Source of the DNA: a virus
Length of the DNA: 26,233 nucleotides
IMG/VR virus record: IMGVR_UViG_3300017751_000188
Coordinates: 1-26,233 of that record
Reading direction: 5' to 3' (one strand)
Each line of letters starts with the position of its first letter. The first letter of the stretch is position 1. Both the position numbers and the translations under genes were made by a program. Shown piece by piece: positions 11,501 to 26,140 of this stretch. The notes below the pieces were generated by a model. The model was not told the origin of the DNA. It worked only from the letters and a program-made list of their open reading frames with translations, and did not search any database.

Positions 11501-11602
11501 TCTATTACTAGCAATCGATCCGAGATCTAATGATACTTCATTAGTTTTTAATCTCCAATCTTCGAAGGTTTCTGACTTATTTACTAGGGTTTCTTTTGAC
11601 AT
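2561..11602 (-). CDS. Giant tail fibre / peripheral baseplate protein, 3013 residues
   Basis: At 3013 residues (over 300 kDa) this is by far the largest product. The N-terminus (ETFEDWRLKTNEVSLDLG, residues 11-28) matches the start of long structural proteins of marine T4-like phages, and probably docks to the baseplate. Residues 416-583 hold three tandem copies of an INELETAIRG unit. Residues 620-1300 are a mosaic of IxEL-type repeats and beta-modules, including a 62-residue segment present twice (723-785 and 1004-1065). Residues 1670-1710 contain GALLVAGGAGIAENLNVGG, a known fibre motif. Residues 2306-2335 and 2730-2746 carry GIGT..P..LDVSG-type shaft repeats. The end (about 2870-3013, with YSGTMSWWAGATAANESDEI and a final KLRRMI) looks like a compact distal beta head. 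There is no S74 domain here. It starts at the ATG of a TAATG overlap with the 76-aa gene. Function as a host-contact fibre is inferred from architecture and position, and it may combine roles of T4 gp10-12 or gp34-37. Confidence 0.75.
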   Translation of the reverse strand: MSKETLVNKSETFEDWRLKTNEVSLDLGSIASNRTYTAASLDTESRLTDQYITRDDLGDGGLYIRDVSNLPGGLEIDYSADRSVDNTDGYLILNAGSTTRFPSGTLIAQYANNSTSSTPLFSATVVSCSNKKILLSNIGGTEGFNPTLNLYDADEVTAFIAASYLKEIIVESYHHGNVRVYRSRNYQFAGNVITGQTVNALILSDDTYHTIQHNEKVTYTTPETGGIYGSPGDVTTFYVIKPKSYTSTEIFLSLTFNGSAETLAAGSGTQSLSTSRVALPQNMNQNGFHIAPQRHYVSTNASSIPATFVEGEVLYQGTQGSETFKGVLYTADISGVLIFKSILEGSFDSSEDLISTTNNSDLIANANLTSNIITADPTIGQMIEFNTPAAAGDDYKVYFGSAVDAVLELQDDVGTVENLQTNNSTDLTVAINELELGLRGTRNNLVATDLATPMSANDVVSALLEHEADLFGAEGASKRTLTSLLTNDQASIVDSINELETAIRGNSSALVATDLGSTSGHPAMDADDLVAAVLEHEVDLYGTGSQTLSSLATNNQSNFVASINELETAIRGTNAGLVLTDLGVTLAPYNNSAVNLVDHNEELQRDIGDVTNAKLGVLNTPDVSLTTSGLTSSATNILTMSSNPIDAGIKVGMFLSGHDTIIDESTGGGSFVTAVSATNVTISRPLLQDLADNASITFKVEDLVTKIKGLDDSLGALDAISTSPFHADITYNKSTFKDTINSITTAIGNADIGTVINSGESDAETLTSALLRLRTDIGDVGDSGANISAGNYTNSTTDLTSSVLAAAVAMTGNVEFITAFDAGGVGSLAEKAGYSATDLHAAIRELQTYVGDASTLSNSGDTYTVNSHGSETGTGTTTLNLVSAADVAVDVGYEVTGTGITGTATIVEKLSSTSFVLNATHTVGTGVTITFTEPTGYGFADDVVTNALIELRTALVGGTADLTDKVNTLDDSDGASTDFNSTNIVDAIRELQDDLGQQSLITQSPFHGDLHGNYSSSTFKDAINSITAAIGAVDIGDVIDSGDETLTNAIAQLRTDIGDVGTSGASLDTTATDITGAINELEDDLYTSTTGSFTGLTSTNFQDAIEENVAELGDVTTIATNDYGASGYVATTAVTGIQELQADVANPTEARMGTNTTRAVTTVGATSNNTITVASGDTVGLVPGMTATHANITSNQTIVSTTATTITLSAAVDSEISDASTVTFKAENLSVKTLALDTNTGDVSTVNDATGYTNTTLVGAITEIQTDIGDTTASNMGTTSSTLVTAIKEIIDGTGQADVTVGATVISRDNANGGFLKKVKGGSGADAQTIVSNLNFNSAGTVGDANKTTFTFGQNTVLDLSAATLITEAANADFTTTAKKIVFSSTVKDGQGIEIDRDAGPIVDAIGNTSIDPSLLWVDQEVTAIDDTNPPFNVGTVGGVTTGDDVISLTSAAGVEIGMVVYENSGGIIPDGTTVIGINQNDITISNTIQSSLPGLNVFFRRHNRSDLAWKVKGFKPSTNPSAADAGYETSNLDFYNAGRLFDRGTSGLDNTENGVIVTWDPVNQHFNTTLETISGVSGTVGSNTRVPVITVDSFGRITNVTTSAIINALGTFKLQASGVSNQVVIGTEDIIDIKGTANQIETDLTFQATGAGTFNNVTVGLTDDVEINETLTVSGTDTSTSSSTGALLVAGGAGIAENLNVGGDLNVGGSISSATGSFSFSTTSATVSSQQIILNALSTVATTETPASTGQAYIPAASFVAHRGFQSTPIAGAIGDLIVGKRYQIISSAASAAITSDEQVALRTVSGADSETDYSNNEIFTAVVTGDTDLGGFTNITLREQNIEAKIAWNEGTDQWELYRGSETSNGAIVAQGDTFTGRLARNTQFDLTGSSVSENHNLTMVSSTGETSDLYEAQRLVFNPVRSDLKLNGKMAIGATGAVDGQSFYYPEAHLHIKTNVDNEDAKIIVESNHDNDSPNSNAVVRLYQGGRNVSGSLRLTGVNDTSVTGGRDNTLLLDSSSHSSTGSESGSIQFATGGTITHEDSLTTIPLDSTSEWLGFRNIFYIDEESETGQGNYAFGYDPMDGVTYQDKIMSDPIRSTQKISFDDNTGIVSLASNTIMYTVGLYTTPNNPSTDIGKNADETDGGAYAEVISFLEDENWRGRTIYMSGQIDPGVYDSNNMHERYIVEAFIKYIIKSDLGNGQFNYSEGPKSSVNLRTGLDNNGNFSLAFAVPTNNTVQSHQTILPQMGFSVKGINAKPGTIQADGDLDIKNLSATYSALTIGDEADIALNNPTITTSPIVRMTIDGETGNIGVGHTNPLSKLDVHGNFRVEGDQTSSFPVDAGVDNDQAHTAVFAPNDLSQYNTLDSAIGSQLKQAVFVSRGALGGDLSYLDITDVRTVNSDDTIQGSSKRIQHRVSGSQTSQGILSGFVSFPGAGNLVEIGGVHSSVDKVGISTNSGGPTQIFHNIAAATSSSKKLETNSGGVTITGDLTSDTGTIGGIKFSAENANENFIAFKGTTGDDDNGGYTHTFIGERIYDGTEKSELLFFKGDDDHTGVLGAPSQPDRIRHFSGQHVFDVFNTDTSGSFDEVGSSSNATRAMTINPDGKIAINTSNVADLSYQSNWPLGSALTIHDNNSFSPIGSQATLHLVNTQTPSTAFGSSPAIQFSAMHNWSDGNNAHSNPGYIGGPYIRAYKDSVEDDNYSMGLKFGTHKQDFIEPRFALVIDSDQKVGIGTETPTTPLDVSGTVNSTAVTTGTIDTTGDIRIGNGTMNGSLFTGEINAVDTGINNQNNRHIYINAGESWALSDNADRIADQNTEKVYINAEYGLEVTSHPENWLALNGATAGWAGKNNPVKINQADGSSEFNKISHTGLQMTSGTDIDQLYTYTLPTPAENTDWQYTGITSDDLSTGTYMVQLYIQENGTGGQFDEIYSGTMSWWAGATAANESDEIFLHNAGSESFSDGADKKNWGLRTQRTSLAGVFVQRELALQIRSTYTTRPAGATYTIKLRRMI
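2564..2998 (-). other. Distal C-terminal beta head of the giant fibre
   Basis: Residues about 2869-3013. A compact alternating beta pattern (TYMVQLYIQENGTGG, then YSGTMSWWAG, DEIFLHNAG, WGLRTQR, LALQIRS, YTIKLRRMI) ends the protein. From memory, similar endings with an LHRAG and a final FKFRRMI occur in other marine phage fibre proteins. It is likely the receptor-side tip or a trimer-capping domain. The W-W and aromatic pattern is visible, but the fold assignment is a guess. Confidence 0.45.
2570..2575 (-). promoter_or_regulatory. Shine-Dalgarno of the S74 fibre, inside the giant fibre gene
   Basis: AGGAGA on the minus strand, 11 bases before the ATG at 2558, and inside the last codons (RRMI then stop) of the 3013-residue gene. 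It is the strongest ribosome site in the window. Because it is covered while the upstream gene is translated, coupling is likely. Confidence 0.6.
7094..7276 (-). repeat. Beta-module B, fibre copy 4
   Basis: Fibre residues 1443-1503. It begins DDVISLTSAAGVEIGMVV, followed by DGTTVIGI and NDITISN. This is the same strand order as the other module-B copies (a strand, then GMxV, a turn, TTVxxI, then xITLS). Confidence 0.55.
7919..8107 (-). repeat. Beta-module B, fibre copy 3
   Basis: Fibre residues 1166-1228: NNTITVASGDTVGLVPGMT, then NQTIVSTTATTITLSAAV and TVTFKAENL. It ends, like copy 1, in an xxTFKxEDL/ENL segment that leads into a helical K-x-L repeat. Confidence 0.6.
8408..8593 (-). repeat. 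Internal duplication in the giant fibre, copy 2
   Basis: Fibre residues 1004-1065, opening SPFHGDLHGNYSSSTFKDAI and ending QLRTDIGDVGTSGA. It matches residues 723-785 closely, including STFKD.INSIT.AIG and DIG.VI.SG, and the similarity is also visible at DNA level. The offset is 281 residues, about 843 bases. Confidence 0.85.
8804..8980 (-). repeat. Beta-module B, fibre copy 2
   Basis: Fibre residues 875-933: GTTTLNLVSAADVAVDVGYE, then GTGITGTATIVEKL, SFVLNATHTV and VTITF. It has the same pattern as the other copies, with Tyr in place of Met after the central Gly. Confidence 0.6.
9248..9436 (-). repeat. Internal duplication in the giant fibre, copy 1
   Basis: Fibre residues 723-785, opening SPFHADITYNKSTFKDTI and ending RLRTDIGDVGDSGA. 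The partner copy lies at 8408-8593. The two copies are diverged but clearly homologous, which indicates that the shaft grew by duplication. Confidence 0.85.
9500..9703 (-). repeat. Beta-module B, fibre copy 1
   Basis: Fibre residues 634-701: ATNILTMSSNPIDAGIKVGM, then FLSGHDTII, ATNVTISRPL and ASITFKVEDL. It follows a helical repeat and precedes duplication copy 1. Confidence 0.6.
9854..10357 (-). repeat. Three tandem INELExxIRG repeats in the giant fibre
   Basis: Fibre residues 416-583. INELELGLRG (431-440), INELETAIRG (496-505) and INELETAIRG (563-572) are each preceded by a TNxxxxxVxSINELE type helix. Each is followed by a (L)VATDLG or VLTDLG strand, and copies 1 and 2 continue into V-AxLEHExDL-G. 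The period is 65-67 residues, about 200 bases. Further IxELQ/IxELE copies without the full unit continue to about residue 1290. The helical segments suit a trimeric coiled-coil shaft. Confidence 0.85.
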
Positions 11603-11836: not shown

Positions 11837-14800
11837 TTATGTACTCGCAATTGCTCTTAAATCAGAAATCATTGGAACTCTACTACTATTTGTTGCAACG
11901 AATACCACTTTAAATGCGAATGATGTAAATGTATCTGTTACTTCCGGAACATCTGCTAAGTTAACTTCATATTCAACCGGACCAAAATTAGTATCATCTG
12001 CTGGAATTGGTTCTAATGGCTCTAATCTAGTCCATTGCAAATCATCAAATGGAACATCATCACCAGAAGTTTGCGCCTTATAATACACAATAACATCTGA
12101 TCCTACTGGTTTAAATACATCTGCAAAGAAATTGAGATGTGTTGCTTCATTAGCTAAAGTAACTTCTTTTGTAATATAGGCATTAAGATTTGAATTACCT
12201 TTAGCTGCAGTATCTGCAACATAGTTTCGCCCATGTGTTGTTTTATTATATTGAGTACTACCTATTTGCTGAGAAGTAACTGCGCTATTTGTTCTATTGG
12301 AAATACAAAATAGTGATGTTCTATCTCCATCAATTATTGGTGTTAAATTAGTATTTGTAGTACTAAGAGATATAGTCATACCAAATGATTTATTAGTTGC
12401 AATATCATTATTTAATCCACCAAGAGGAGATAGTCCTCCACCTGGATTATGTTCAGCTGAACTAGCAATACACAGAGGATTATCTAGGTAATTAGTTTTA
12501 TTAAATGTTAAAGGTTGATTAACAGTTTTTACAAATTTACCTTGAGTAGTATTATCTTGTGATCTACCGCTAAATCCACTATATTCAGCTGATACAGAAG
12601 TTTCAGGTAAGTTTAGCATCTCAGTATAAGGAACAAATGCATCAATCATCATATTCTCGGTTGCAGTTACACTATCACCACCACCATAACTATTTTCAGA
12701 TAAAGTTCCCGTAAATGTTATAGGATCAAGAGCATATGAATCTCTTTCAACATCCCTAATGACATGATATCCGTTTATTTGAGAAGCTGTTAATGATCCA
12801 ATTGAAGTAGCTCCAGCAATTGTAACGCCACTTCCTTCCATCATTCCATGATTAGGATGACTTACTCTGAGTACAGCGCTATTTGTTGCAGAAGCTGTAC
12901 ATACAAGGAAAGGATCTGTGACTAAATCTTTAACTGGAAGCTTGTCATTTACAAATGTAAGTGTTGCATTTGATTCAAATTGCGCTTTATACAACTTAAA
13001 CTTAAGATCACGTTTTGGATCAGCTGTCCAAGTTGAAGCATTTTGAGACATGAAGAAAGAACCACCATAGTGGTTACCATCAACTAATGCACCAGTTGTT
13101 AAATCATTTTTACCTGGTGTTGTTACAAATAGCTTGTAAATATCTGAATTAGACATTAACACAATCGCGTATTCTTGATCTTGAGATAAGTAAACTGGAT
13201 TCGAGAATGTAACCGGTAATGCAGCTGACGCATTATCTGATATCATAGGACCGTTACCACCAGAGCCAGTGTATAATACATTTATTTCGTCAACTTTACC
13301 ACTAGTACCTAATGCACTAATAGCAGATTGACTCGCTTCAATAGAAACTCTAAATACTGTACCTACATTATTATTTGGTGCACCTACTGATGTAAAGTTA
13401 CTAGATCCTGAAGTCATAATTCGATATTTTTTACCAGCTACCATCGTATTTGCATTTGTAGTACCTGATGATGCAGTCGATGGATAAATTACGGTATCAG
13501 ATCCCGGTACAACTTTTTGAGTAGGATAACCATTTAACATTTCTCTAATAGATACATTAATTGGTATTGAAGGATCAGCTGTATTTAAGAATATATCAAG
13601 TTCAGTAACAAAACAACCACCTTTTTCTGTTATCAAAATCGATTGAGCTAATGGATCAAACCAAGTTACTCTTCTTTGATCGTTAACATTGCGTTCAGTA
13701 ATAACTCTATTTTCCGTTATTTCGCGATGTGCGATTTGTGCAACCTTAGTATTAACAATTGTATTTTGCTTAGACTCTATCAAACCTTGTGCACGATAAG
13801 TTGCTTCGGCATAAGTCATTTCATCATTAAGACTAGCAGTATCATTTGATGGAGAATCAGTTAATTTAAATATACGCTCACCAGTTTTGAATTTTAACGC
13901 CTCAGTATTAGGAATCAAAAATGACCCGGTAATTCTACCAGATGCATCAGTCGTTAACTGGCCACGACTACTAAGAGTATGTTGTGTTTGGTTAGTGTAC
14001 AATCTTACATTAGTTCTATCTGTAAATTCCTGGAATGCTTTTTCTGCACAATAATTAGTAACGTTAACACCATTAAAGAATGCATAAAGCTTAGTATTGG
14101 GTTTTAATAATTCAGCAGTAAAGTAAACTTCTCTAGAACGAATAAACGGTATATAATTAACTTCTACTACCTTATCACCTGATTCTGTAGTAACAGTATC
14201 TTCTTTAATATAACCCATTGTTCCTACGCGCGATTGCCCAGTTCTAGTAGTAGTAGTTGTAACTTGACCTACGTTTCTTCCTGGCTGCCACCAGCCTCCT
14301 CTATCGCGCCAATTTGTATTTCCTACTGCACCGAAAGTAAAATTCTGAGTACGAGTACTAGTACCAACCCAATCTGTTTCCCATTCGCCCCAATCCCATT
14401 GACCTACGAGTCCGGCCTTTTCATAAAGCTCAACCATTTGATTAAAGTTACCATCTGAATTAACAATAACATCTGGTAAATGTTCTACATCTTTCCATTC
14501 ATCCGTATCTGGTGATAGTCGGCATGTTCCAGTCCATACAAACATATTATATGGATTAATAAACTCTGTTTCAGTTGCATTAGGTTGATTAATAAATGAT
14601 ACACTAGTATATGGTAATGAATAAGTTGATCTATTATGTACAGCCGCCCCGTTGTCTCCAGGTTTACGAACTAGATTAACACATTGTTCATCAAACATTG
14701 GTCTTACTACGTTATTTTTTCTATCAATAGAACAGAAATAATTTGGATGCGTAACGTGTGCGTTGCCATGGCCTTTAAACTGATCTGTAAAAATACCATT

Positions 14801-17800
14801 TTTAAATCTTTCAACAGTATCTTCATAAGTAGTAAGACCATCAGCAGTTGGTTTTTGCACAACTTCATTAAGAGATATATTAAATGTAGCTTGCTCTTGT
14901 AAACTTAAAGAAGTATAATATTCTAGTTTCTTAAGTCTTTTATCAATATCAGCAATATTCTTCATAGTATATCGCTTATAATTTCTTACTTCAGGTATAA
15001 TATCAACTCGAGCATCATACGTAAATGGTTTAACTTTTAATACTCCAATTACCATACAATCAGATGGATCTTCTATTTCAACCGGGTCTTCGCTTGAAAC
15101 ACCTTTTAATATCTGGTATTCTCCATCACGTCCTAATACAATTTTATCTATTCTAGGAAACCATATTTGACCGTTAAAAATAAATTGAGAAGCCGGTTGA
15201 ATTGCAGGAGAGTTAACAGAAGCGCCAGGACCAGATGATGGTGTATAATCAAAGACACTATCATCTGTTAGTCCATATTGATTTGTTGTAAAACCGGTTG
15301 TAGCTTTTACTGGTCTAAAATCTACGCAATCTTTTAAATCAACTTCTTCACCAGAAGGTAACGAAAATTTTGGTATATCTTTTAAATAATGTCCAGTTAC
15401 GGCATTATCTACTGGGTATGAATCCTTAACAAGATATTCTCCTGAACTATGTGTATAGTGATCAAAAGTTACATATAATTTACCCGCAGCTATTTTTTGC
15501 AATGGTATTAACTTACCTTCGCCATAATAATTGGCAGTTTGACCATTATCTAAATCAAACTTATCGGTGACATCAGCTCCAATAAGGGATAAAGTTGATC
15601 CAGTATTGATATCGGCTTCAATTGCAATCGATAGGGTTATAGTATCTCCAGATTTATCAGTAATAGTTGTTCCATTTACAATACCTACGCCTACTACGCC
15701 CATTCCAATTTCTGCGTTACCTGAAGTTGCTGAAGTAAGAGTTATTTGAGTGTCACCATCAGTAGCATTGCCATCTGTTTCACCAGTACCATTAACTCCC
15801 AATTTTACAGAATGAAGCTTGTATATATCGTATGCATCTAGGAGTAAAGAACTATTACCATCAAAGGTATATTCTTTATTTATTTCCTGATTAAACGTTT
15901 TGTTTTTTCTATTATCTCCCGCTCCAGTTTTTTGTACTACAATAATTACAGCGAGGCTTTCACCACTAGCAATATCATCATGATTTATTGTAATATTTTG
16001 AGAATCATTTCCTGTACCCGCTGAGGCTGTAGCATCAACTTTAGTTACGAGATCAGTACCAGTACCGGTACCTATTGACGTCACTATACCAGTAGTTGAT
16101 ATTAATGTTTCGTCAATAGCTAATGCATTACTAAAAGTATGTGCATTATCAGCACTAGCACTATCTACATATAATTTCTTTTGTATTTGATAAATAGGTT
16201 TAGGGTCGTTTGCTGTTTCAGTCGTCTTAATTCCATAATGAGGTAAAGACCATATATAAGAATTATCTTTTGCAAGATACTTTTTACCTGAAGTTCCACC
16301 GATTGGTGTAGGTAAAATTGCATGAAAACTATTAGCTGCAGAGCCATCAGTTGCAGTTGATAATTGTTCTACTCTATCAACCTGTGCAAAAGATCCTTTC
16401 GTCATAATGATATCGAATAGATATAATCTTAAAAAGCCTGTAGTATCTGGTGTTACTGCGCGACATCTTGCTCTACCGACACCAAGTTGTGCAACATTAA
16501 ATGTAAGATCATGAGTAGTATCAGTACCACCTAACGCAGATCCTTTAACGGTAAATACGTTATCAACATGATAACCATCACCGCCTTCTGTAACTTCAAT
16601 TGATACAAATTTAGATTGATCAATAGTAATTTTAAACTCAGCTCCAGTTCCTTGACCACCGCCTGCAGTATTTGAAGTACAAATAGTACCACTAGCACCA
16701 GTATCTGTTACATTATAAATTCCCGTGGCTCTACCTGTTGAAGCAGTAGCTTGAAACGGAGTGGCGCCAGTACTATCATTAACAGTATCAACCAAAGCAA
16801 CATGATCAAGTTCTGAAGAATCAACAAGAGCTAGCTCTCTAAAATTATTAATATCAGGTAATCCAACTGAGTTAGTAGTAGTATCAATTTGTACTCTTAT
16901 GTAATTTCCAAGAGGTAAGCTACTTGTTGTACTTTCTTTTTCAACGAAGTCGAAAGGACTAGCACTAGTCTCTCGCGGTTTATCTACTTCAATAAACTTA
17001 GTTGAAATATTTTCAGTTCTAAACCCTTGCACATAAGCAACATTAGGTTCAATACCAACAACATACTTATCAGCATCACCACCGTTAGCTGCAGTTAAAT
17101 AACCATTATTAGATCCGTTATCTAAATGTTCTTTAATATCTAATACGAATGGTTTTAAAGAATAGTTTCCTGATTCTTCATATGTTCTATTTGCAAATCT
17201 ATGAGTTAATTCTGTATCAACCTCTGCAGCAGGAGCAATTTTCTTTTGAATTATTCCGCCTTGAACTCGCAATAAAGTTAGGTAATTAGTATATATTGTA
17301 TTAGGAGCATCAAGAGGCTCTTTAATTAATTGAGTTGAGATTTTATAACGATCTGCACCAGGAGCAGAAGCATTAGGAAATCCTTGTGCATTATCAACTA
17401 GATCAGGATCATCGACTGCTGATACGACTGTTTCTAAAACGTTTAAGCCTATAATATTATTTGGAATATTACTATATTTGTCTAGTATTAGATTGTCAGC
17501 ACTAACATAAACAAAGCTGCCTGACATAAAATAGACACCTTCATTAATTGTTATTTTAGACCCCTGACCTATCGCATTTTGAATTGTCGAATCTTCGCCA
17601 GCATTATCAATATTAGTACCTTCACCAACCATTAATTTGTGATTAGCATTGGTACTTGATGTTAATACCTCTCCAATAGAAAATAAATTAGAATTATTAG
17701 TACCACTACCTTTAATGTACTTAATATATATTGTAAGAGGATCAGAAGAATTGCCAGAAGATAAAATTCCGCTTTTATTAGAATTTGATTTTAAATCAGT

Positions 17801-18181
17801 ACCTGCCTCACTAATAATTTGAATTACTTCAGCTTCAACACCATTTGCATTTGTTAATACTGTACCAACAGTATTTGCAATAGTTGTAATAAATGATTCT
17901 GAATTATATGTTCCAGTACCATCAGTAAATGTGCTTTCAAGTTTTACATAATCATATTCAACATCTAATGCAAGCTCACCTCCAGTAACACGGCTTCCAT
18001 CTACGAAACTATATTGACCATGATAATCAATTTGTCGCTGCAAATTAGTTTGAAGCTCTGTAAGTTCGCGGGCTTGTACTGATACACCCGGTCTAAATAA
18101 CACTCTATGATAATTCTTTGTCTCAACAGAGTCATCAAAAGTATAAGTTGAAAAAATACTTTTTACTTTACTAATTGCCAT
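11837..18181 (-). CDS. DUF4815-type giant baseplate/tail structural protein, 2114 residues
   Basis: The N-terminus (residues 22-75, with KNYHRVLFRPGVSVQARELT, LQTNLQRQI and a DGSRVTGGEL segment) matches DUF4815 proteins of T4-like marine phages. Later landmarks of this large family are DCVDFRPV at 951, a coiled stretch MKNIADIDKRLKKLEYYTSL at 1073, FDPLAQSILI at 1508, VSIREMLNGYPTQKVVPGSD at 1543, HPNHGMMEGSGVTI at 1775, and the end VFVATNSSRVPMISDLRAIA. It occupies the place of T4 genes 9-12 and probably forms peripheral baseplate structure that holds fibres. Three small beta-modules are spliced in: a GGDGY module at 527-566, module B at 811-866 and module C at 1582-1640. Residues 1262-1298 contain seven tryptophans. 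The Shine-Dalgarno AAGAGAA (18189-18195) overlaps the stop of gp8. The family assignment is strong, the exact role is inferred. Confidence 0.85.
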   Translation of the reverse strand: MAISKVKSIFSTYTFDDSVETKNYHRVLFRPGVSVQARELTELQTNLQRQIDYHGQYSFVDGSRVTGGELALDVEYDYVKLESTFTDGTGTYNSESFITTIANTVGTVLTNANGVEAEVIQIISEAGTDLKSNSNKSGILSSGNSSDPLTIYIKYIKGSGTNNSNLFSIGEVLTSSTNANHKLMVGEGTNIDNAGEDSTIQNAIGQGSKITINEGVYFMSGSFVYVSADNLILDKYSNIPNNIIGLNVLETVVSAVDDPDLVDNAQGFPNASAPGADRYKISTQLIKEPLDAPNTIYTNYLTLLRVQGGIIQKKIAPAAEVDTELTHRFANRTYEESGNYSLKPFVLDIKEHLDNGSNNGYLTAANGGDADKYVVGIEPNVAYVQGFRTENISTKFIEVDKPRETSASPFDFVEKESTTSSLPLGNYIRVQIDTTTNSVGLPDINNFRELALVDSSELDHVALVDTVNDSTGATPFQATASTGRATGIYNVTDTGASGTICTSNTAGGGQGTGAEFKITIDQSKFVSIEVTEGGDGYHVDNVFTVKGSALGGTDTTHDLTFNVAQLGVGRARCRAVTPDTTGFLRLYLFDIIMTKGSFAQVDRVEQLSTATDGSAANSFHAILPTPIGGTSGKKYLAKDNSYIWSLPHYGIKTTETANDPKPIYQIQKKLYVDSASADNAHTFSNALAIDETLISTTGIVTSIGTGTGTDLVTKVDATASAGTGNDSQNITINHDDIASGESLAVIIVVQKTGAGDNRKNKTFNQEINKEYTFDGNSSLLLDAYDIYKLHSVKLGVNGTGETDGNATDGDTQITLTSATSGNAEIGMGVVGVGIVNGTTITDKSGDTITLSIAIEADINTGSTLSLIGADVTDKFDLDNGQTANYYGEGKLIPLQKIAAGKLYVTFDHYTHSSGEYLVKDSYPVDNAVTGHYLKDIPKFSLPSGEEVDLKDCVDFRPVKATTGFTTNQYGLTDDSVFDYTPSSGPGASVNSPAIQPASQFIFNGQIWFPRIDKIVLGRDGEYQILKGVSSEDPVEIEDPSDCMVIGVLKVKPFTYDARVDIIPEVRNYKRYTMKNIADIDKRLKKLEYYTSLSLQEQATFNISLNEVVQKPTADGLTTYEDTVERFKNGIFTDQFKGHGNAHVTHPNYFCSIDRKNNVVRPMFDEQCVNLVRKPGDNGAAVHNRSTYSLPYTSVSFINQPNATETEFINPYNMFVWTGTCRLSPDTDEWKDVEHLPDVIVNSDGNFNQMVELYEKAGLVGQWDWGEWETDWVGTSTRTQNFTFGAVGNTNWRDRGGWWQPGRNVGQVTTTTTRTGQSRVGTMGYIKEDTVTTESGDKVVEVNYIPFIRSREVYFTAELLKPNTKLYAFFNGVNVTNYCAEKAFQEFTDRTNVRLYTNQTQHTLSSRGQLTTDASGRITGSFLIPNTEALKFKTGERIFKLTDSPSNDTASLNDEMTYAEATYRAQGLIESKQNTIVNTKVAQIAHREITENRVITERNVNDQRRVTWFDPLAQSILITEKGGCFVTELDIFLNTADPSIPINVSIREMLNGYPTQKVVPGSDTVIYPSTASSGTTNANTMVAGKKYRIMTSGSSNFTSVGAPNNNVGTVFRVSIEASQSAISALGTSGKVDEINVLYTGSGGNGPMISDNASAALPVTFSNPVYLSQDQEYAIVLMSNSDIYKLFVTTPGKNDLTTGALVDGNHYGGSFFMSQNASTWTADPKRDLKFKLYKAQFESNATLTFVNDKLPVKDLVTDPFLVCTASATNSAVLRVSHPNHGMMEGSGVTIAGATSIGSLTASQINGYHVIRDVERDSYALDPITFTGTLSENSYGGGDSVTATENMMIDAFVPYTEMLNLPETSVSAEYSGFSGRSQDNTTQGKFVKTVNQPLTFNKTNYLDNPLCIASSAEHNPGGGLSPLGGLNNDIATNKSFGMTISLSTTNTNLTPIIDGDRTSLFCISNRTNSAVTSQQIGSTQYNKTTHGRNYVADTAAKGNSNLNAYITKEVTLANEATHLNFFADVFKPVGSDVIVYYKAQTSGDDVPFDDLQWTRLEPLEPIPADDTNFGPVEYEVNLADVPEVTDTFTSFAFKVVFVATNSSRVPMISDLRAIAST
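13262..13444 (-). repeat. Beta-module C inserted in the DUF4815 protein
   Basis: Residues about 1580-1640: VAGKKYRIMTSGSSNFTSVG, then NNNVGTVFRVS and ALGTSGKV. It lies between the IREMLNGYPTQKVVPGSD segment and the LPVTFSNPVYLSQDQEYAIV segment. These are normally joined by a shorter linker in the family (from memory), so it reads as a loop insertion. Confidence 0.65.
15584..15751 (-). repeat. Beta-module B in the DUF4815 protein
   Basis: Residues 811-866: TQITLTSATSGNAEIGMGVV, then GVGIVNGTTITD, GDTITLSIAI and STLSLIGAD. It shows the same pattern as the copies in gp8 and the giant fibre. Confidence 0.65.
16484..16603 (-). repeat. GGxGY module in the DUF4815 protein
   Basis: Residues 527-566: SIEVTEGGDGYHVDNVFTVK, then GSALGG and HDLTFNVAQ. 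It aligns by eye with the gp7 segment AGTGYKVGEVITIPGSDLGG, which ends in LELIVNQV. Confidence 0.6.
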
Positions 18182-18188
18182 TTTTTTA

Positions 18189-18195
18189 TTCTCTT
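18189..18195 (-). promoter_or_regulatory. Shine-Dalgarno of the DUF4815 gene
   Basis: AAGAGAA on the minus strand, 7 bases before the ATG at 18181, overlapping the TAA stop of gp8. It supports the chosen start and coupled translation. Confidence 0.55.
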
Positions 18196-19936
18196 AAAAT
18201 TCAAGGATTAATTTAATATCTTCTATTTGTGTACTACTTCTTTGAATAGGATCACGATTTTCAATAAATAATATCTCACCAGATTGCTTATTAAAGTCAG
18301 TAACACCATTAGAAGCAGTTAATGTAATACCACCAACAGCTCCGGTTGGCGCGCCACTATCTGAGTATGTAAGGGTATCAGTTGCAGGGAATGAATTATA
18401 ACCAGTAAGACTGTTTTGTACATAATATATTTTACCTGCAGTTGTGTCTACATTTGTAACATAAGCTCGAGGTATCACCCCTTGAGCTGACGCAGCACCT
18501 TGGCTGCCTTTTAACAATACATCATTACCATTTTGGACCACATTAGCCATACCAACAACAGCAGATTGAATATTTGCGTCACCAGTATCATAACTTAAAA
18601 ACTTAGTTGCTCTAAATGTGCCGCGATTATTACCTCTTGCTGTTGCTGCAGCTTTAGTCTCAACTTTTTCTGCAGAACCTGTACCAACCGTAGGATTTTT
18701 AAGTATAGTGATTTGTCTAAAGTCCTGGTTATTTGCAATATCAGTATCATCAACTCCACTAATTTGTGTATTTGCGGCAACATAAAAACCACCGAGCTCT
18801 GCTACAGGGTCTACACCGTGACCAGATGGAGGTGGAATAATTGCTCTTGCTTTAAATCCAGAACCTAGTAATTCACTATCAATAATAGATACTTGAGCAA
18901 CACTATAATTAGTACCAGGATTACTTGGAACAATTCTAGTAATTGTATTGCTAATTTTAGTTACACTTGCCGTAGTAACAGCTCCACCAGTTCCATCACC
19001 TACAATAAAAATCTCATCAGCTATAGCGCTATTTGTATCGGTATAACCACTACCAGCATCAGTTACTTCAATACGATCAATACCGCCCGCAAGTGGTATA
19101 CTATTCTTCTGAGCTTGTTGCTGATCATAAAGAGGGTTAGTATCTTCAAAATCACCAAATGTTAAAATGGTGCTAGCAGTAGTAGTATATTCAACTGTAT
19201 TTGCTGTAAGAGTTACGAATTTGCCTGATACTGCAGTTACAACAGTCGTATTCGCGAATGTACCAGTTACGACACTTGCACTTACTCGTTGGCCTACAGT
19301 AATTTTTGGATTTTCATTCTCTAATTCAATTGTAAATGCACTATTTGCTGCAGCAGTTTGTCCAGCAACAGCCTGAGTTTCAGTACTAACAGTAAGTGTT
19401 TTAACTGGCATATAAGAACGAGTTAAAAACTTTTCTGAATCAGTAGCAATAACGGTATACATATACTTCCACTTATAACCATCAGCTGTTTCAAATGGTG
19501 CAGCTTGTACTTTTACTGGAACATCAGATGCTAGAGTTGTACTAGATAATCTATCTATGCATTTATATACTTTAAAGTCTCTTGTTAAAACATAAAAAGG
19601 ATTTTCCGAGTTTTCGAAAATATTAGGATCATCCGAATCCCATGGTGTATACACAGTACCTGCCGTCCAGTCATATCTTGGAACTACATGCGATACTTCG
19701 TTATTTTTCAATAACTTCATGCCAATCATATTAGCCCGAGCTTCGTTGGCATCGTCAATGGTATCTACCGGTAATGGAGCTTGACCATCGGTAAAATCTT
19801 GCAAATTCGGGCTTGAATCTTGCCAAGCTGTAGTTTTACCCACACCAATGTAAATGTTACTTTGCTCAGATCTTACGTCTTCGATAAAACCCTTTGCGTT
19901 AAGTGATCTAAAATTGTTTGAAACGATTGCGGCCAT
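18194..19936 (-). CDS. gp8: Baseplate wedge subunit gp8
   Basis: A 580-residue protein, against 334 in T4 gp8. The N-terminal part has the marine gp8 pattern: MAAIVSNNFRSLNAKGFIED, VSHVVPRYDWTAGTVY at 81-96, FYVLTRDFKVYKCIDR at 114-129, and DGYKWKYMYTVIATDSEKFL at 152-171. The later hallmarks are IIPPPSGHGVDPVAELGG at 365-382 and DFRQITILKNP at 405-415. It ends with GEILFIENRDPIQRSSTQIE and DIKLILEF. In T4, gp8 joins gp10, gp7 and gp6 in the wedge. The extra length comes from a module-B segment (185-262), a GSGY-type segment (287-350) and a loose C-terminal insertion (about 430-545). It sits 9 bases after gp7, with a TAGGAT ribosome site overlapping the gp7 stop. Confidence 0.9.
   Translation of the reverse strand: MAAIVSNNFRSLNAKGFIEDVRSEQSNIYIGVGKTTAWQDSSPNLQDFTDGQAPLPVDTIDDANEARANMIGMKLLKNNEVSHVVPRYDWTAGTVYTPWDSDDPNIFENSENPFYVLTRDFKVYKCIDRLSSTTLASDVPVKVQAAPFETADGYKWKYMYTVIATDSEKFLTRSYMPVKTLTVSTETQAVAGQTAAANSAFTIELENENPKITVGQRVSASVVTGTFANTTVVTAVSGKFVTLTANTVEYTTTASTILTFGDFEDTNPLYDQQQAQKNSIPLAGGIDRIEVTDAGSGYTDTNSAIADEIFIVGDGTGGAVTTASVTKISNTITRIVPSNPGTNYSVAQVSIIDSELLGSGFKARAIIPPPSGHGVDPVAELGGFYVAANTQISGVDDTDIANNQDFRQITILKNPTVGTGSAEKVETKAAATARGNNRGTFRATKFLSYDTGDANIQSAVVGMANVVQNGNDVLLKGSQGAASAQGVIPRAYVTNVDTTAGKIYYVQNSLTGYNSFPATDTLTYSDSGAPTGAVGGITLTASNGVTDFNKQSGEILFIENRDPIQRSSTQIEDIKLILEF
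18887..19078 (-). repeat. GGxGY module in gp8
   Basis: Residues 287-350: DRIEVTDAGSGYTDTNSAIA, then a GDGTGGAVTTASVT turn and a second half IVPSNPGTNYSVAQVSI. This double unit resembles the GAGY/GTGY units in the C-terminal part of gp7. Confidence 0.55.
19151..19384 (-). repeat. Beta-module B inserted in gp8
   Basis: Residues 185-262, core ITVGQRVSASVVTGTFANTT, then VVTAVSGKFVTLTAN and ASTILTFGD. It lies just after the RSYMPVKTLTV strand of the conserved gp8 core and reads as an insertion that T4 gp8 lacks. Confidence 0.6.
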
Positions 19937-19942
19937 AATTGT

Positions 19943-19947
19943 ATCCT
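19943..19947 (-). promoter_or_regulatory. Shine-Dalgarno of gp8
   Basis: AGGAT on the minus strand, 6 bases before the ATG at 19936, overlapping the TAG stop of gp7. The immediately upstream bases can fold: AGGA pairs with UCCU across a short CCGAAGU segment. Confidence 0.6.
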
Positions 19948-22900
19948 AGGAACTTCGGTCCTTTTCAGGTTGAATAATTGTGTTAACGTTAAGATTATTT
20001 ATACTACTTGTATCGACATTTTCTATAGTAAATGATGATAATTGATCAATTCGATACTCTCCAGTAAACTTCTTAACTCCTAATATTGGGTTTTCATTAT
20101 ATATTTTTCTTGCAAAATAATTATTATTTCTATCGACATTTGTTGTAGTAACTCTTCCAGTATCATCATCGATATGTTGAATATCATTACCATTTGTTAC
20201 AATTCTTATTGGTATAACTGTAGGCACTCGTTTTTCGTGAATAGAGTTACTTATTATTTTTACTTCTGGATCATTAATATATCCTAGTCCAGCATTTGTA
20301 ATTCTAAATCCATTTAATTTACCATCAGCATCATAAGGTACAACAGTAGCAGCAGTTGAAGATAATACACTTCCATCATTATATGCAATAAATGTATCTC
20401 CAACATTCCATGTTGTTTGCTGATCTTTGGCGATAGAATTAAAGTTAGCATCGGTGGCATCACCTTTAAATGCTACTATATATCTATTTCTTAATACAAG
20501 CCTTGCTGTACCATCTAATGGAATTTCAGTATTAAGAGTAAGTCTTGCTTCTGCATTAATGTTGGTTGATAAAGGCTGACCTATTGAATCAATTGCATCA
20601 GGAGAAGCAATGCTTACAATAGGTGGTATTCTGTATTTTTTAGTTATATTTAGATTAATAGTTAAACCTATTTCTGCAACTTGTAGTTTTGCTGTTGTAG
20701 TTAAACTCGAGCCAGTAGTTTCAGCCTGAAATACATCACCAACTTCCCAAGTTTCTCTATCATATTCTTCTGTTGATATTGCATTGAAGTTTGCTGAAGT
20801 TGCATCACCTAAATCTAATATTTTATAAAAAATACCAACTGTTAATGGATTACTTGCTAATGTAATTTCTGTTAAATCGGTTACTTTACCAATAGCAGTT
20901 TCTGTACCACTATTAGCAACTTCGCTTAATGGTTGTACAGTAAGAGATGAGTTTGTATCATAACCAGTTCCGGAATGTACTTGGTTTACTATAAGTTCTA
21001 GATCAGCACCTCCTCCTAAATCACTTCCCGGAATTGTAATTACTTCACCGACTTTATATCCTGTGCCGGCAGTTGTAGCTGTTACACTTTCAATTGTATC
21101 ATCAGCACCAATAACAATAGTAACTTCGCCATCGATGCCCGAACCAGAAGAACGCGAACCACCGGTTGATATAGCAGTTACAGTAGTATCGGTACTTCGA
21201 TTATTATCTGCAGTTCCATCGAATATAAATGAAGTTGAATTAGTTGGAGTAGATGTAGTAAGCGGATGTCCACCTTTTACAATTACATCTACTACTTCAC
21301 CAAATCTATTTACTTCAGTTTCAAATACAGCATCAGAACCATCTGATGCTGTTACAGTTGGAGCAGTATTATAACCAGCACCAGGCTCAACAATTGATAC
21401 ACCATCTGCAGGAATAGTTCCACCAGTTTCAAGTTTTACAATAGAAAGTCTTGCTGATCTATTTGGGCGAGCATCTGTAGAAGGAGAAAAGAAAGAAGCC
21501 AGTGCTATAATAAGTAATGCAAGATCATCACGCATCAATCCAGGCTGTATTCCTGGCATAGCAGAAAGAGTTTTTCTAAACGCCGCTGCATTGCTATATG
21601 CAATTACGTTTCTTTCTTCTGTTATTTCGTTACCAAAAAGATCTCTTGTTCTTTCGGTAATTGTTGTTCTCGGACCTTCAGGACCAGCCCCATCACCTAA
21701 AACATCACGTACAGCTTTAATTACAACTAAAATTTCGCCAAAGTATTTAAATCCTGCTGGATGAACTAATTTATTATAAACGTTTTTCCATTGAGATATA
21801 TTACGACCAGCTTTAATTACATACGAAAACTTTTGATAAAATTCAGAATCTTGTATTTTTTGTTTATCAGATAAAAAGCCTTCGTTATTTAAATACTTAC
21901 CTACTTGAGACGGTCTATTGAAATTAATAATATGACCACCTGCACTTGATAAAGGTGTACCAACAAGTAAGTTATATACATCGGTTTTAGAAATTTCAAC
22001 GAACGAACCAAACTTATTATTAGCAGTTTTAATTTCATTATATGTCGATTTTTGAAGCCATTCATCTATTTTTTCAAAATGATATACTAATCCACAGTTT
22101 GTAATAAGGTTAGTATCATCTATTCCATCAGAAAGCGGTGCTCCTACTAATACATTATTATTAAATATTTTTAATGATGTACCAAAACCATCATCAAGTT
22201 GTCCAACTGATGGTTGTAATCTATCCTGTAAATCCCAATTTACAACATTATTACTCGCAACGTGTCTTTCAAAAATATATACTGATCTAGATCCTGGTGA
22301 AGAAATTGCACAAATCGGTTTTGCTGGATTTGTTATTGCATCTAAATCAAAAGACGTTCCAAATAAATCGCCAGTATCTAATGTTCTAGGTACTAATATA
22401 TCTTCCGGTATTTCATTAAATAAACCTGTTGATTGGTTTTTAGTAAATATACTTACTGAACCTGTATTATTATTTCTACTAGGCCAAGAAACAATTAAAT
22501 AATTACCTTTTAAATGTACCTTTTCACCCCAACCATTTTCTCCATTTTCATTCACATCTAGTGGAGTAGGAATAACTTGCGATTGTACCCAACTAGAACC
22601 AGTACCTTTATAGACAATAATCGCACCATTTGAACGATCAGCATTTACGTAACCAGGAACACAAACTGCTAAGGTATCTCTATCTAATGATATGTCTTTA
22701 CCAAAGTTTAATCCTCCAGTACTGCCACTAAGTTTCGACTGAAAACGCCATTGATATGTTGAAGGTGCTTGTGTTAAAAATCTTTGCCATATTTCTACAG
22801 TACCACTATCAGCTGCAGTTCCACCATTATACTCAGTATCTTCTGGAGCTGATATTGCAACTATTTCATCAGATAAAGATACAACTGAACCAAACTTATC

Positions 22901-24274
22901 ACCTCCCGATCCAGTATTACTTTCAATTTTTACTTCTGAGCTATAAGTGTAACCATTATCACCAGTATTATAAATATATACAGCACCTTCATCCGAATCT
23001 TTTCCTGGTGCACCTACAGCTACTAATTTTGTCACAGCATCTAATGAAATAGAACTACCATAATCGTCGCCTGCAGCCGCATCTGAAGCATTTAAATCAG
23101 TATTTAATTTATCATACGCTGCAGCAACTAATGTTTGATTATCCCAGTTACCCATCGATGTTTTAAGCGTAGAATCCCATGGGTATGTAACATCAATTTC
23201 TTGATCTTGAAAAAACAATTTAAAAAATAAATCAATCGAATCGTTTGAACCACGTATTCTATAAAAATCAATTAGTCTTTGATAAAGAGCTCTTTTATTT
23301 ACATTAATATTTTTATCAATAGAAGGGGCGATTTCTCGCTGCATCATATCTAAAAGTTCTTCGTCAGTCTCATTAATATTTAAAGCATCTTCTAACGTAT
23401 TTAATTTAAAGGATGGATTAGAGATGACAAGATTTTGTACTGACGTACGAACTGTAATTTTTTTATTATTTAATCTTGCTGGTAATCCTACGATTGATAA
23501 TGTTCTTCCTGAGTTACTATCTAATGAAATATCAGTAGGTAAATTATCTACGTTAAAAATATTAATATCATCTACTGCAATATCATAATCAATTGAATTG
23601 TCTCCAACTGTTAAAATATTGCCTTCGAAGTCAATAATTTGCGCACTACGAGCAGCAGCTTGACTAAAAAACTTAGTATTTTTTAAATCCGGATCTGGTA
23701 TACGAATCGTTGCAACATTATTAATAACTACATCTTCAAAGGTTTCTATTTCTTTATATAGAAACTCTTCAGTATTCATAAATTTATAATATGCATCAAG
23801 GAAAGGCTGTATACCACCAGAATCAACATCCCCCGAATGATCTAAAAGTTGTTCTGGTATAAGATCATTAATTCTTAAATCTTCTTTTGATCGTGATAAT
23901 GTGCTACCAACAATATCATATTGGTCAAGACCAGAATTAGTATCGCTTACAGTTATAAAAGTATTAGCATCAAGAGTTTGAGGAATATCTATACTAATAG
24001 TTGATTCACCATTACCATTATCTAAAGTAAATGATACTATTTTAGGTATACCATCGATTCCTTCGGCCGATATTACTTGGCCAATAACAGGAACTATTTC
24101 ATTATATAAGCCTTCATTTTTGACTAATTTACTAGTAAAAACAATCTCAGTGCTGTTTGTTATTGCAGTTTTTACATCACCCGATAATGTTGTATCAAAG
24201 TCAACTTGTGTAGTACGACCTTCAATATAACCACGAGAAAATGAATCTAAATTTTTTAAACTTTTAACTGACAT
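19946..24274 (-). CDS. gp7: Baseplate wedge subunit gp7 with an inserted beta-propeller
   Basis: A 1442-residue protein; T4 gp7 has 1032. It is assigned from its place between gp6 and gp8 and from the marine gp7 pattern: an N-terminus with DSFSRGYIEGRTTQVDFDTT, a mid segment NVNKRALYQRLIDFYRIRGS (324-343) followed by LFFKLFF, and IQDSEFYQKFSYVIKAG then KLVHPAGFKYFGEILVVIKA (807-854). Between the last two lies an insert of about 400 residues with seven FG-GAP repeats (see separate entry). Residues 957-1340 hold GAGY, GTGY, GTGY and GLGY beta repeats and two copies of module C. A hydrophobic helix lies at about 916-930. In T4, gp7 starts wedge assembly with gp10, and gp8, gp6 and gp25 then add. 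The gene starts 3 bases after gp6 with GAGA (24281-24284) 6 bases upstream of the ATG. Confidence 0.8.
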   Translation of the reverse strand: MSVKSLKNLDSFSRGYIEGRTTQVDFDTTLSGDVKTAITNSTEIVFTSKLVKNEGLYNEIVPVIGQVISAEGIDGIPKIVSFTLDNGNGESTISIDIPQTLDANTFITVSDTNSGLDQYDIVGSTLSRSKEDLRINDLIPEQLLDHSGDVDSGGIQPFLDAYYKFMNTEEFLYKEIETFEDVVINNVATIRIPDPDLKNTKFFSQAAARSAQIIDFEGNILTVGDNSIDYDIAVDDINIFNVDNLPTDISLDSNSGRTLSIVGLPARLNNKKITVRTSVQNLVISNPSFKLNTLEDALNINETDEELLDMMQREIAPSIDKNINVNKRALYQRLIDFYRIRGSNDSIDLFFKLFFQDQEIDVTYPWDSTLKTSMGNWDNQTLVAAAYDKLNTDLNASDAAAGDDYGSSISLDAVTKLVAVGAPGKDSDEGAVYIYNTGDNGYTYSSEVKIESNTGSGGDKFGSVVSLSDEIVAISAPEDTEYNGGTAADSGTVEIWQRFLTQAPSTYQWRFQSKLSGSTGGLNFGKDISLDRDTLAVCVPGYVNADRSNGAIIVYKGTGSSWVQSQVIPTPLDVNENGENGWGEKVHLKGNYLIVSWPSRNNNTGSVSIFTKNQSTGLFNEIPEDILVPRTLDTGDLFGTSFDLDAITNPAKPICAISSPGSRSVYIFERHVASNNVVNWDLQDRLQPSVGQLDDGFGTSLKIFNNNVLVGAPLSDGIDDTNLITNCGLVYHFEKIDEWLQKSTYNEIKTANNKFGSFVEISKTDVYNLLVGTPLSSAGGHIINFNRPSQVGKYLNNEGFLSDKQKIQDSEFYQKFSYVIKAGRNISQWKNVYNKLVHPAGFKYFGEILVVIKAVRDVLGDGAGPEGPRTTITERTRDLFGNEITEERNVIAYSNAAAFRKTLSAMPGIQPGLMRDDLALLIIALASFFSPSTDARPNRSARLSIVKLETGGTIPADGVSIVEPGAGYNTAPTVTASDGSDAVFETEVNRFGEVVDVIVKGGHPLTTSTPTNSTSFIFDGTADNNRSTDTTVTAISTGGSRSSGSGIDGEVTIVIGADDTIESVTATTAGTGYKVGEVITIPGSDLGGGADLELIVNQVHSGTGYDTNSSLTVQPLSEVANSGTETAIGKVTDLTEITLASNPLTVGIFYKILDLGDATSANFNAISTEEYDRETWEVGDVFQAETTGSSLTTTAKLQVAEIGLTINLNITKKYRIPPIVSIASPDAIDSIGQPLSTNINAEARLTLNTEIPLDGTARLVLRNRYIVAFKGDATDANFNSIAKDQQTTWNVGDTFIAYNDGSVLSSTAATVVPYDADGKLNGFRITNAGLGYINDPEVKIISNSIHEKRVPTVIPIRIVTNGNDIQHIDDDTGRVTTTNVDRNNNYFARKIYNENPILGVKKFTGEYRIDQLSSFTIENVDTSSINNLNVNTIIQPEKDRSS
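19996..20003 (-). promoter_or_regulatory. Possible late promoter box TATAAATA upstream of gp8
   Basis: An exact TATAAATA on the minus strand inside the end of gp7, 59 bases before the gp8 ATG. It would give a leader of about 50 bases. Two similar boxes occur at 272-279 and 11760-11767. Chance cannot be excluded. Confidence 0.3.
20336..20482 (-). repeat. Beta-module C, gp7 copy 2
   Basis: gp7 residues 1265-1313: YIVAFKGDATDANFNSIAKD, then TTWNVGDTFIAYNDGSVL and STAATVV. It aligns with copy 1 at D-AT-ANFN-I, W-VGD-F-A and GS-L--TA. Confidence 0.8.
20684..20827 (-). repeat. Beta-module C, gp7 copy 1
   Basis: gp7 residues 1150-1197: YKILDLGDATSANFNAISTE, then TWEVGDVFQAETTGSSL and TTTAKL. The partner copy lies 115 residues later. 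From memory, the module (a YxI strand, G-T-FN-IG, then VGTxFTA..GTG) is common in marine phage structural proteins. Confidence 0.8.
21899..23107 (-). other. Seven-bladed FG-GAP beta-propeller inserted in gp7
   Basis: gp7 residues about 390-792. Seven FG-GAP type units begin at residues 405 (YGSSISLDAVTKLVAVGAP), 461 (FGSVVSLSDEIVAISAP), 524 (FGKDISLDRDTLAVCVP), 582 (WGEKVHLKGNYLIVSWP), 638 (FGTSFDLDAI, then ICAISSP), 697 (FGTSLKIFNNNVLVGAP) and 755 (FGSFVEISKTDVYNLLVGTP). Spacing is 56, 63, 58, 56, 59 and 58 residues. Most units continue with a G-VxIY/F strand and an aromatic-rich outer strand before the next FG. The last unit stops after its third strand (GHIINFNR), while the residues before unit 1 (YDKLNTDLNASDAAAGDD) look like the missing outer strand. 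That is the normal velcro closure of a propeller. Acidic turns such as GKDSDEG and NADRSNG could bind calcium. Confidence 0.85.
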
Positions 24275-24277
24275 ATA

Positions 24278-26140
24278 TTATCTCAATCTACTTGTAGTTG
24301 AATAATCAAGAGTTCCAGAAGGTCCTGAATATGCAATTTGATCAATTGATCCAGAAGCAAGAATACGTGAAGCTTCTATATTAATAATTTGATTTCTCTT
24401 TGGCGCAATATCTAATGAATCAGGAGCAATTGTTATTTGTATTGTCGTTGGTGTATCTACTGCAAAATTATTTAATGTAATTACTCCATTTAAAGTATTT
24501 ATTTCTCCTGCATCTGGTACTACAACCTGATTTTGCGCATTTACTACTTTATATACCATAACCTTTCTATTATTAGATCCTTCGATTTCTAAGTCTCCGA
24601 AGAAATGATCTATACCACCAATTTTAAATGCTGTACTGTCAATGCTAAATTCTTTTCCTTTTTTAATAAAGAATTTGCCGGCATAAGTTAAAGTAAATGT
24701 GTTATCGGCTTTTATTGTACTAGCATCTATGTTTTTATACATAAATGGTCTTATCGTAGAACTTGTAATTGCTGGATCAGAATTATCAACAAGAGTTAAT
24801 AATTCAGAGTGTCTAAATACACCATCAAACTTATTAAGTTGGTTAAAGTTATAATCTAAAATTGTATCAGTTACTAATGATTCAATTGCTTGTTTTGTTC
24901 TACTTGTAAGAGCAGGATTATATTTAAATATAACGTCTAGTTCGATATTTGTAAATTCTGGATCTAGTATTTCAGGTTTAATAGATACTGTATTTTTATT
25001 TTGTAAAATATCGACAATTTGATTTTTTTCATTTTGAGTAAGCACATTACCAATCAATGGCTTAATACTTAGATATGCTTTTCCATAATCAGGAATAACA
25101 TTATCTTCACCACCCCATGTAGAAATAGATTCGATATTAGCAAAGTTGCGCTGAATAATTGCAGCATAGTCCTGAGATGTAACTGCTCGATCCTGAGCTT
25201 GGAATGTAATAGGAGCATTAAATCTAATTGACTCTGTGGTCTCAGCTTGAGTACCACCAGTAGCTGTAGTAAGCGTAGTCACAGTTGTATTAATGTTACC
25301 AGTCAAAGTTGGAAAATCTGTTGTAAGAGTAAACGTATTTGCACCGTTTGCAGCTGGCCCATCAGTTGCAAGATAATCGAGTGTTACAATATTGTCATTT
25401 ACTGGCTTCTTACCAATAATACCATCACCAAAATATATTTGGAAAAAGCCACTTGAATTTTCTTGTAAATGATACACTTGGCTTAATGAATCGATTTCTT
25501 GTAATGTAGTAAATTTAACATAAGAATCAAATGCATTCGAATCTTGGTTTTCTTGAATACGAACTCGTAATGAAGATGTATCAGCGTTTAAATCAGAAAG
25601 CTGAAACTTTTGATTTTCTATTTCGTTATCTACTCGATACGATAGATATCTAAACTTACCTTGACCTAATGTTATCTCGTCAAATGTATATGTTTTACTA
25701 GCGTCATCTTCAACTAAAATAGCAGTTTGAGATTCTAAAGAAGAAAACGTATATGAAACACCATCAACAACTGAATTAAATTTAGTACCTCTTTCTACAA
25801 CAAGTGCCGAAGGAATTGTACCTTGATAAGCACTTACATCTACAACTAACTTTACTGTTGATCGTGGTGCTAGTATTGATCGTGGAGTATAACCGAGTAG
25901 TCCTGCACGTGATACAACATTACCACGAATTTGAGCTGAATCAAGAAATGCTTCGTTAAGAGCAAAGTGAGCTAGCATCGCATTATAATGTGTATTATAT
26001 GCAAGAACATCCATTAACACGTTTAGACCTGAACCTTCAAAGTCATAATCTTTAAATTGCGATTGTGACTTCATAAAGCTTTTTAAATTTTCCTTTATCT
26101 GATCAAAGTCTAATTCTGTAACATTTAAATTTGATGCCAT
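24278..26140 (-). CDS. gp6: Baseplate wedge subunit gp6 (baseplate J-like)
   Basis: A 620-residue protein, close to T4 gp6 (660). Residues 29-88 carry the family signature: FKDYDFEGSGLNVLMDVLAY, NTHYNAMLAHFALNEAFLDS, then AQIRGNVVSRAGLLGYTPRS. Residues 237-266 (FGDGIIGKKPVND, then LDYLATDGPAANG) and 303-347 (RFNAPITFQAQDRAVTSQDY, then NFANIESISTWGGEDN) are baseplate-J-like core segments. In T4, gp6 dimers form the inner ring that ties the six wedges together around the hub and interlock with gp25 and gp53. The gene follows gp25 with a 6-base gap and starts at the ATG at 26140, with AGG (26150-26152) in the last gp25 codons as ribosome site. Its composition is the most AT-rich of the window. 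Confidence 0.95.
   Translation of the reverse strand: MASNLNVTELDFDQIKENLKSFMKSQSQFKDYDFEGSGLNVLMDVLAYNTHYNAMLAHFALNEAFLDSAQIRGNVVSRAGLLGYTPRSILAPRSTVKLVVDVSAYQGTIPSALVVERGTKFNSVVDGVSYTFSSLESQTAILVEDDASKTYTFDEITLGQGKFRYLSYRVDNEIENQKFQLSDLNADTSSLRVRIQENQDSNAFDSYVKFTTLQEIDSLSQVYHLQENSSGFFQIYFGDGIIGKKPVNDNIVTLDYLATDGPAANGANTFTLTTDFPTLTGNINTTVTTLTTATGGTQAETTESIRFNAPITFQAQDRAVTSQDYAAIIQRNFANIESISTWGGEDNVIPDYGKAYLSIKPLIGNVLTQNEKNQIVDILQNKNTVSIKPEILDPEFTNIELDVIFKYNPALTSRTKQAIESLVTDTILDYNFNQLNKFDGVFRHSELLTLVDNSDPAITSSTIRPFMYKNIDASTIKADNTFTLTYAGKFFIKKGKEFSIDSTAFKIGGIDHFFGDLEIEGSNNRKVMVYKVVNAQNQVVVPDAGEINTLNGVITLNNFAVDTPTTIQITIAPDSLDIAPKRNQIINIEASRILASGSIDQIAYSGPSGTLDYSTTSRLR

Follow-up and report, generated by a model that had tools for sequence, protein, structure and literature searches.

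The gp7 gene and its neighbours

The window is the whole stretch of viral DNA that we analysed, 26,233 nucleotides long (IMG/VR virus record IMGVR_UViG_3300017751_000188). It comes from an uncultured marine phage of the T4-like kind and encodes a series of baseplate proteins in which a gp7-type wedge protein is flanked by gp6 on one side and gp8 on the other, the gene position of a T4-type gp7. The genes, and two conserved blocks within gp7, are as follows:

24278-26140, minus strand: gp6 baseplate wedge protein (PF21379, 4e-21; phrog_219, 5e-163)
19946-24274, minus strand: gp7-type baseplate wedge protein, 1442 aa (open reading frame; PF23786; baseplate-wedge PHROGs; core homologous to T4 gp7)
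23141-23419, minus strand: left conserved gp7 core block B, residues 286-378 (cross-phage profile, E 9e-45)
21722-21907, minus strand: right conserved gp7 core block C, residues 790-851 (cross-phage profile, E 7e-38)
18194-19936, minus strand: gp8 baseplate wedge protein (PF09215, 3.5e-15; phrog_438, 6.5e-85)
11837-18181, minus strand: VrlC-type large baseplate protein (tblastn, 32-33% identity to the proteins annotated as VrlC in HTVC008M and Mosig)
261-2558: S74-type tail-fibre gene

The Pfam family Baseplate_wedge (PF23786) matches the window gp7 in two stretches with 28.8 bits (cut-off 27), and the protein contains both blocks of the core that is homologous to T4 gp7. In a profile-profile comparison, T4 gp7 matched the marine core with a probability of 96% (E 4e-9); it holds block B at residues 732-759 and block C at residues 863-890, in the same order. 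In the window, gp8 comes next after gp7, and no gp9 or gp10 gene separates the two, unlike in P-SSM4; the window encodes both gp7 and a VrlC homologue. Between the VrlC homologue and the tail-fibre gene lies a gene for a 3013-aa protein (2561-11602) that has almost no family matches. Toward the C-terminus of gp7 (residues ~1140-1350), the motif GDAT.ANFN.I......TW.VGD.F occurs twice, and similar GAGY/GTGY stretches recur.

Seven FG-GAP blades and their predicted fold

The first-pass annotation placed seven FG-GAP units with a period of about 58 residues at 21899-23107, coordinates that match residues 390-792 of gp7. The FG motifs fall at residues 405, 461, 524, 582, 638, 697 and 755, with spacings of 56, 63, 58, 56, 59 and 58 residues (period 56-63); the first reads YG and the fourth WG. 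Pfam FG-GAP_2 (PF14312) matches the protein with an E value of 3.5e-21, and a blade profile detected seven units and no others across residues 397-792 (E 1e-12 to 3e-20). When each blade was scored by a profile of the remaining six against 1000 shuffles of that blade, none of the 1000 shuffles equalled the real score for any of the seven. Both the number of units and their period were thus borne out, and seven units were likewise present in every complete propeller-bearing relative scanned. The blades, placed by the blade profile, and the strand that precedes them are:

23093-23113, minus strand: short strand just ahead of blade 1, residues 388-394, which may be the velcro strand of blade 7 (position; DSSP of the AlphaFold2 model)
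22922-23086, minus strand: FG-GAP blade 1, residues 397-451
22730-22915, minus strand: FG-GAP blade 2, residues 454-515
22568-22726, minus strand: FG-GAP blade 3, residues 517-569
22418-22552, minus strand: FG-GAP blade 4, residues 575-619
22211-22381, minus strand: FG-GAP blade 5, residues 632-688
22037-22204, minus strand: FG-GAP blade 6, residues 691-746
21899-22030, minus strand: FG-GAP blade 7, residues 749-792 as placed by the profile (modelled with three strands)

We modelled gp7 residues 285-860 with AlphaFold2 from 19 sequences. The pLDDT was about 90 across residues 385-789, and most of the flanking sequence scored below 50. Strands in the model are grouped in fours in blades 1-6 and in a set of three in blade 7, with a short one ahead of blade 1, and this strand order is consistent with velcro closure of the propeller by its N-terminal strand. 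A Foldseek search of the PDB returned only integrin alpha-subunit structures among the 50 best matches (best E 6e-13), and the sequence profile of the window propeller matched integrin alpha-4 (E 1.6e-6). Together with the repeat statistics, these results uphold the proposal of a complete seven-bladed FG-GAP propeller, with a toroidal fold in the predicted structure. The empty gp7 core modelled alone reached a pLDDT of 52, probably because its gp6 partners were missing, and was left out of the fold search.

The window is one metagenomic contig, and this is the sole point in favour of an assembly chimera or of a chance likeness to FG-GAP repeats. Such a reading is vanishingly improbable and we reject it, since the same fusion of gp7 and propeller occurs on 20 further IMG/VR contigs and all seven blades passed the leave-one-out test; the fold is also predicted with confidence.

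FG-GAP propellers elsewhere often bind their ligands with calcium, and the first-pass annotation had listed ion sensing among the possible roles. Calcium binding was not supported, as no blade of the window propeller contains a DxDxDG calcium loop between strands 1 and 2, and we rejected calcium sensing by the window propeller. A calcium-loop-like DIDSDG does occur in blade 5 of one sub-lineage only (L030-L032). We also rejected a variable top face of the integrin kind: variability in loops 4-1 and 2-3, on the presumed ligand face, did not exceed that in the loops of the opposite face and was, if anything, lower (mean entropy 1.25 vs 1.51, p 0.035).

The insertion point between core blocks B and C

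The propeller sits exactly between core blocks B and C. The first-pass annotation was right to place it between two conserved gp7 segments, but the real boundaries are tighter than the motifs that it quoted: the left core stops at residue 378 (GNWD) and the right core begins near residues 787-790 (GKYLNNEGFLSD). We surveyed insert lengths with profiles of both flanking blocks in relatives from IMG/VR scans and in named phages. In 59 distinct marine gp7s the site is empty (1-6 aa); in one of these (L038), ..STLIPSSGNYD.. runs almost directly into ..LYLDTKGFLSD... Two empty-site gp7s were found on MAG contigs in a search of genome contigs for relatives. Inserts in the propeller clade are 408-489 aa long. 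Inserts of other sequence span 83-508 aa, with 83 residues in Ochrobactrum phage OC, 92 in SRB7757, 356 in Mosig, 375 in Melnitz and 508 in HTVC008M, and giant inserts of 2598-2819 residues are present in five cyanophages and one of 2124 residues in B23. YHYH and Laminin_G_3 (LamG) domains lie within the cyanophage inserts. The propeller is thus present or absent at one identical point across relatives, and those with an empty site show it to be a self-contained insertion into gp7, as the first-pass annotation had proposed. The propeller occupies one loop of the core, running from B to C, which is empty in related marine phages. We are almost certain of this anatomy, a seven-bladed FG-GAP propeller (as predicted) in one core loop. 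Because close relatives do without it, the propeller is accessory.

It had also been claimed that T4 gp7 lacks such a domain. T4 indeed has no propeller, but its site is not bare, since about 61 extra residues, within domain V (PF21427, 766-861), lie between the core blocks. Homology between T4 domain V and the small insert of marine phages is only suggestive, and because hhalign gave a probability of 8% we claim for them a shared position only.

A tree of gp7 based on the core, with the insert excluded, united the propeller-bearing proteins in a single clade (support 100/96). The branch of the empty-site group had support of 44/72, and the propeller clade may lie either inside or beside that group. 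Within the clade, the propeller diverges faster than the core, as judged from sequence identity to the window: 62-73% for the propeller vs 85-93% for the core in nearer relatives, 26-46% vs 64-81% in L030-L035, and 26-28% vs 64-75% in L033 and L035. Complete proteins of this clade also have a longer N-terminus, with 286-387 residues ahead of block B compared with 171-246 in empty-site gp7s. In L005 (2281-6849), the GAP loop of blade 1 has some 80 additional residues nested within it, so this loop tolerates additions. In contig L004 (2250-3122 and 3070-5880), gp7 is broken across two frames, perhaps by a frameshift or sequencing error. A search for close propeller relatives in 50,697 phage records gave weak repeat matches only.

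T4 Gp7 was reported to be absent from pelagi- and cyanomyophages and seemingly substituted by VrlC (PMC7029224). Our block profiles contradict this report, because both core blocks were found in HTVC008M, Mosig and cyanophages. The proteins that carry them are gp7, although they are annotated as 'head closure Hc2' in HTVC008M (L131, 3436-6486) and as 'hypothetical protein' in Mosig (L132, 10882-13506, minus strand), while P-SSM4 gp7 was already annotated as such. VrlC is a separate gene from gp7 in HTVC008M, Mosig and P-SSM4. The range of insert sizes may explain why gp7 was reported absent despite the presence of its core, and the B and C blocks provide a means of annotating giant gp7 proteins.

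Among related phages, the contents of a single, precisely defined position in this core baseplate protein thus range from nothing to about 2800 residues. Because the site is empty in close relatives, holds a small domain in T4 and carries enormous inserts in cyanophages, the B-C loop has the look of a natural socket at which the infection machine can take on domains, and it suggests where a contractile apparatus tolerates such additions. We propose, tentatively and at somewhat less than an even chance, that T4-type baseplates in general have an insertion socket in this loop. Unrelated domains (the propeller, YHYH/LamG arrays, small beta domains) would have been plugged in independently and would give the baseplate its own host binding apart from the tail fibres; the propeller would be a single acquisition, at a socket that was empty or had been emptied.

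Possible roles of the propeller and comparison with known systems

In T4, gp7 is present in six copies per tail (PMC3004832 Table 1), one per wedge in the (gp6)2-gp7 trimer (PMC3004832, PMC6300606). With the same copy number, six propellers would stand at the baseplate periphery, each tethered through its neighbouring N and C ends. There, the most likely role of the propeller is that of an accessory adhesion module that touches the host envelope, or a glycan on it, close to the baseplate, and such contacts would help hold the tail through the baseplate switch. It would then be a possible host-contact element besides the tail fibres. Fast divergence is expected of an exposed, host-facing part, and the YHYH and Laminin_G_3 domains that cyanophages carry here also speak for adhesion. 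Against it count the presumed ligand-face loops, which are not more variable, the lack of a calcium motif in the window and the S74-type tail-fibre gene, which can serve receptor binding; fast divergence could equally reflect relaxed constraint. We put adhesion as the function a little below an even chance, and regard the explanation as a whole, six loop-borne propellers at the baseplate rim acting as accessory adhesion modules, as about evenly balanced.

The propeller could instead be a docking platform to which a fibre or pin protein attaches, doing the job of gp9/gp10 or of a wedge loop elsewhere. In phage A-1(L), the long tail fibre is anchored by residues 129-151 of the wedge protein gp32, a C-terminal loop immediately past the helical bundle of gp32, and is also held by an insertion domain of gp31 (PMC10966104). 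Two beta-sheet loops of TssG, a relative of gp7, dock TssK trimers (PMC6300606). We infer from topology that the gp7 B/C site may correspond to the TssG or gp32 loop, and the lack of a gp9/gp10 gene between the window gp7 and gp8 would fit such a role. However, relatives with an empty site have adjacent gp6, gp7 and gp8 genes yet no propeller, so docking must function without it, and no strong propeller-specific block was found in gp8 (there were two, of 8 and 11 residues). We consider docking rather unlikely.

A structural filler or stabiliser, packed between wedges or on VrlC and binding no ligand, is more doubtful still. The longer N-terminus of the propeller clade indicates that gp7 is enlarged as a whole, and VrlC and the 3013-aa protein suggest a bulky baseplate, but if the propeller were buried in such packing, slow change in step with the parts around it would be expected, and it diverges much faster than the core.

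A search of open-licence papers retrieved none on FG-GAP with phage baseplates or with pelagiphages. FG-GAP propeller folds or repeats are shared by nt-1 ORF127, a 3692-aa protein of Sinorhizobium phage Phosso, the S-TIM5 virion protein H6WG31 and proteins of Mimiviridae and prasinoviruses, the last three known here from fold matches alone. ORF127 is a free-standing gene of 1209 bases with no adjoining baseplate genes. The Phosso protein (L018, 690-11768), in which a gp7 core was not found, has more than 30 FG-GAP-like units, with further units in the next open reading frame. Integrin alpha-chain propellers share the seven FG-GAP units and were the top fold matches, but the window blades lack their DxDxDG loops, identity is about 15% and the setting is a phage baseplate.

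Among phages, the nearest cultured relatives by gp6 are HTVC008M, Mosig and Melnitz (35-38% identity; hosts Pelagibacter and Methylophilales). Their gp7s have the same core blocks as the window gp7, but their inserts are without FG-GAP. The giant gp7s of cyanophages (P-SSM4 and Kyanoviridae relatives, ~5400-8600 aa) share the two blocks and the identical insertion point and differ in their ~2600-2800 inserted residues with YHYH and LamG, in which no FG-GAP propeller was found. T4 gp7, the baseplate wedge initiator (Pfam Gp7_helical, Gp7_5th and Gp7_6th), resembles the window protein in the order of blocks B and C and in the gp6-gp7-gp8 gene order, but has domain V residues at the site where the window gp7 carries its propeller.
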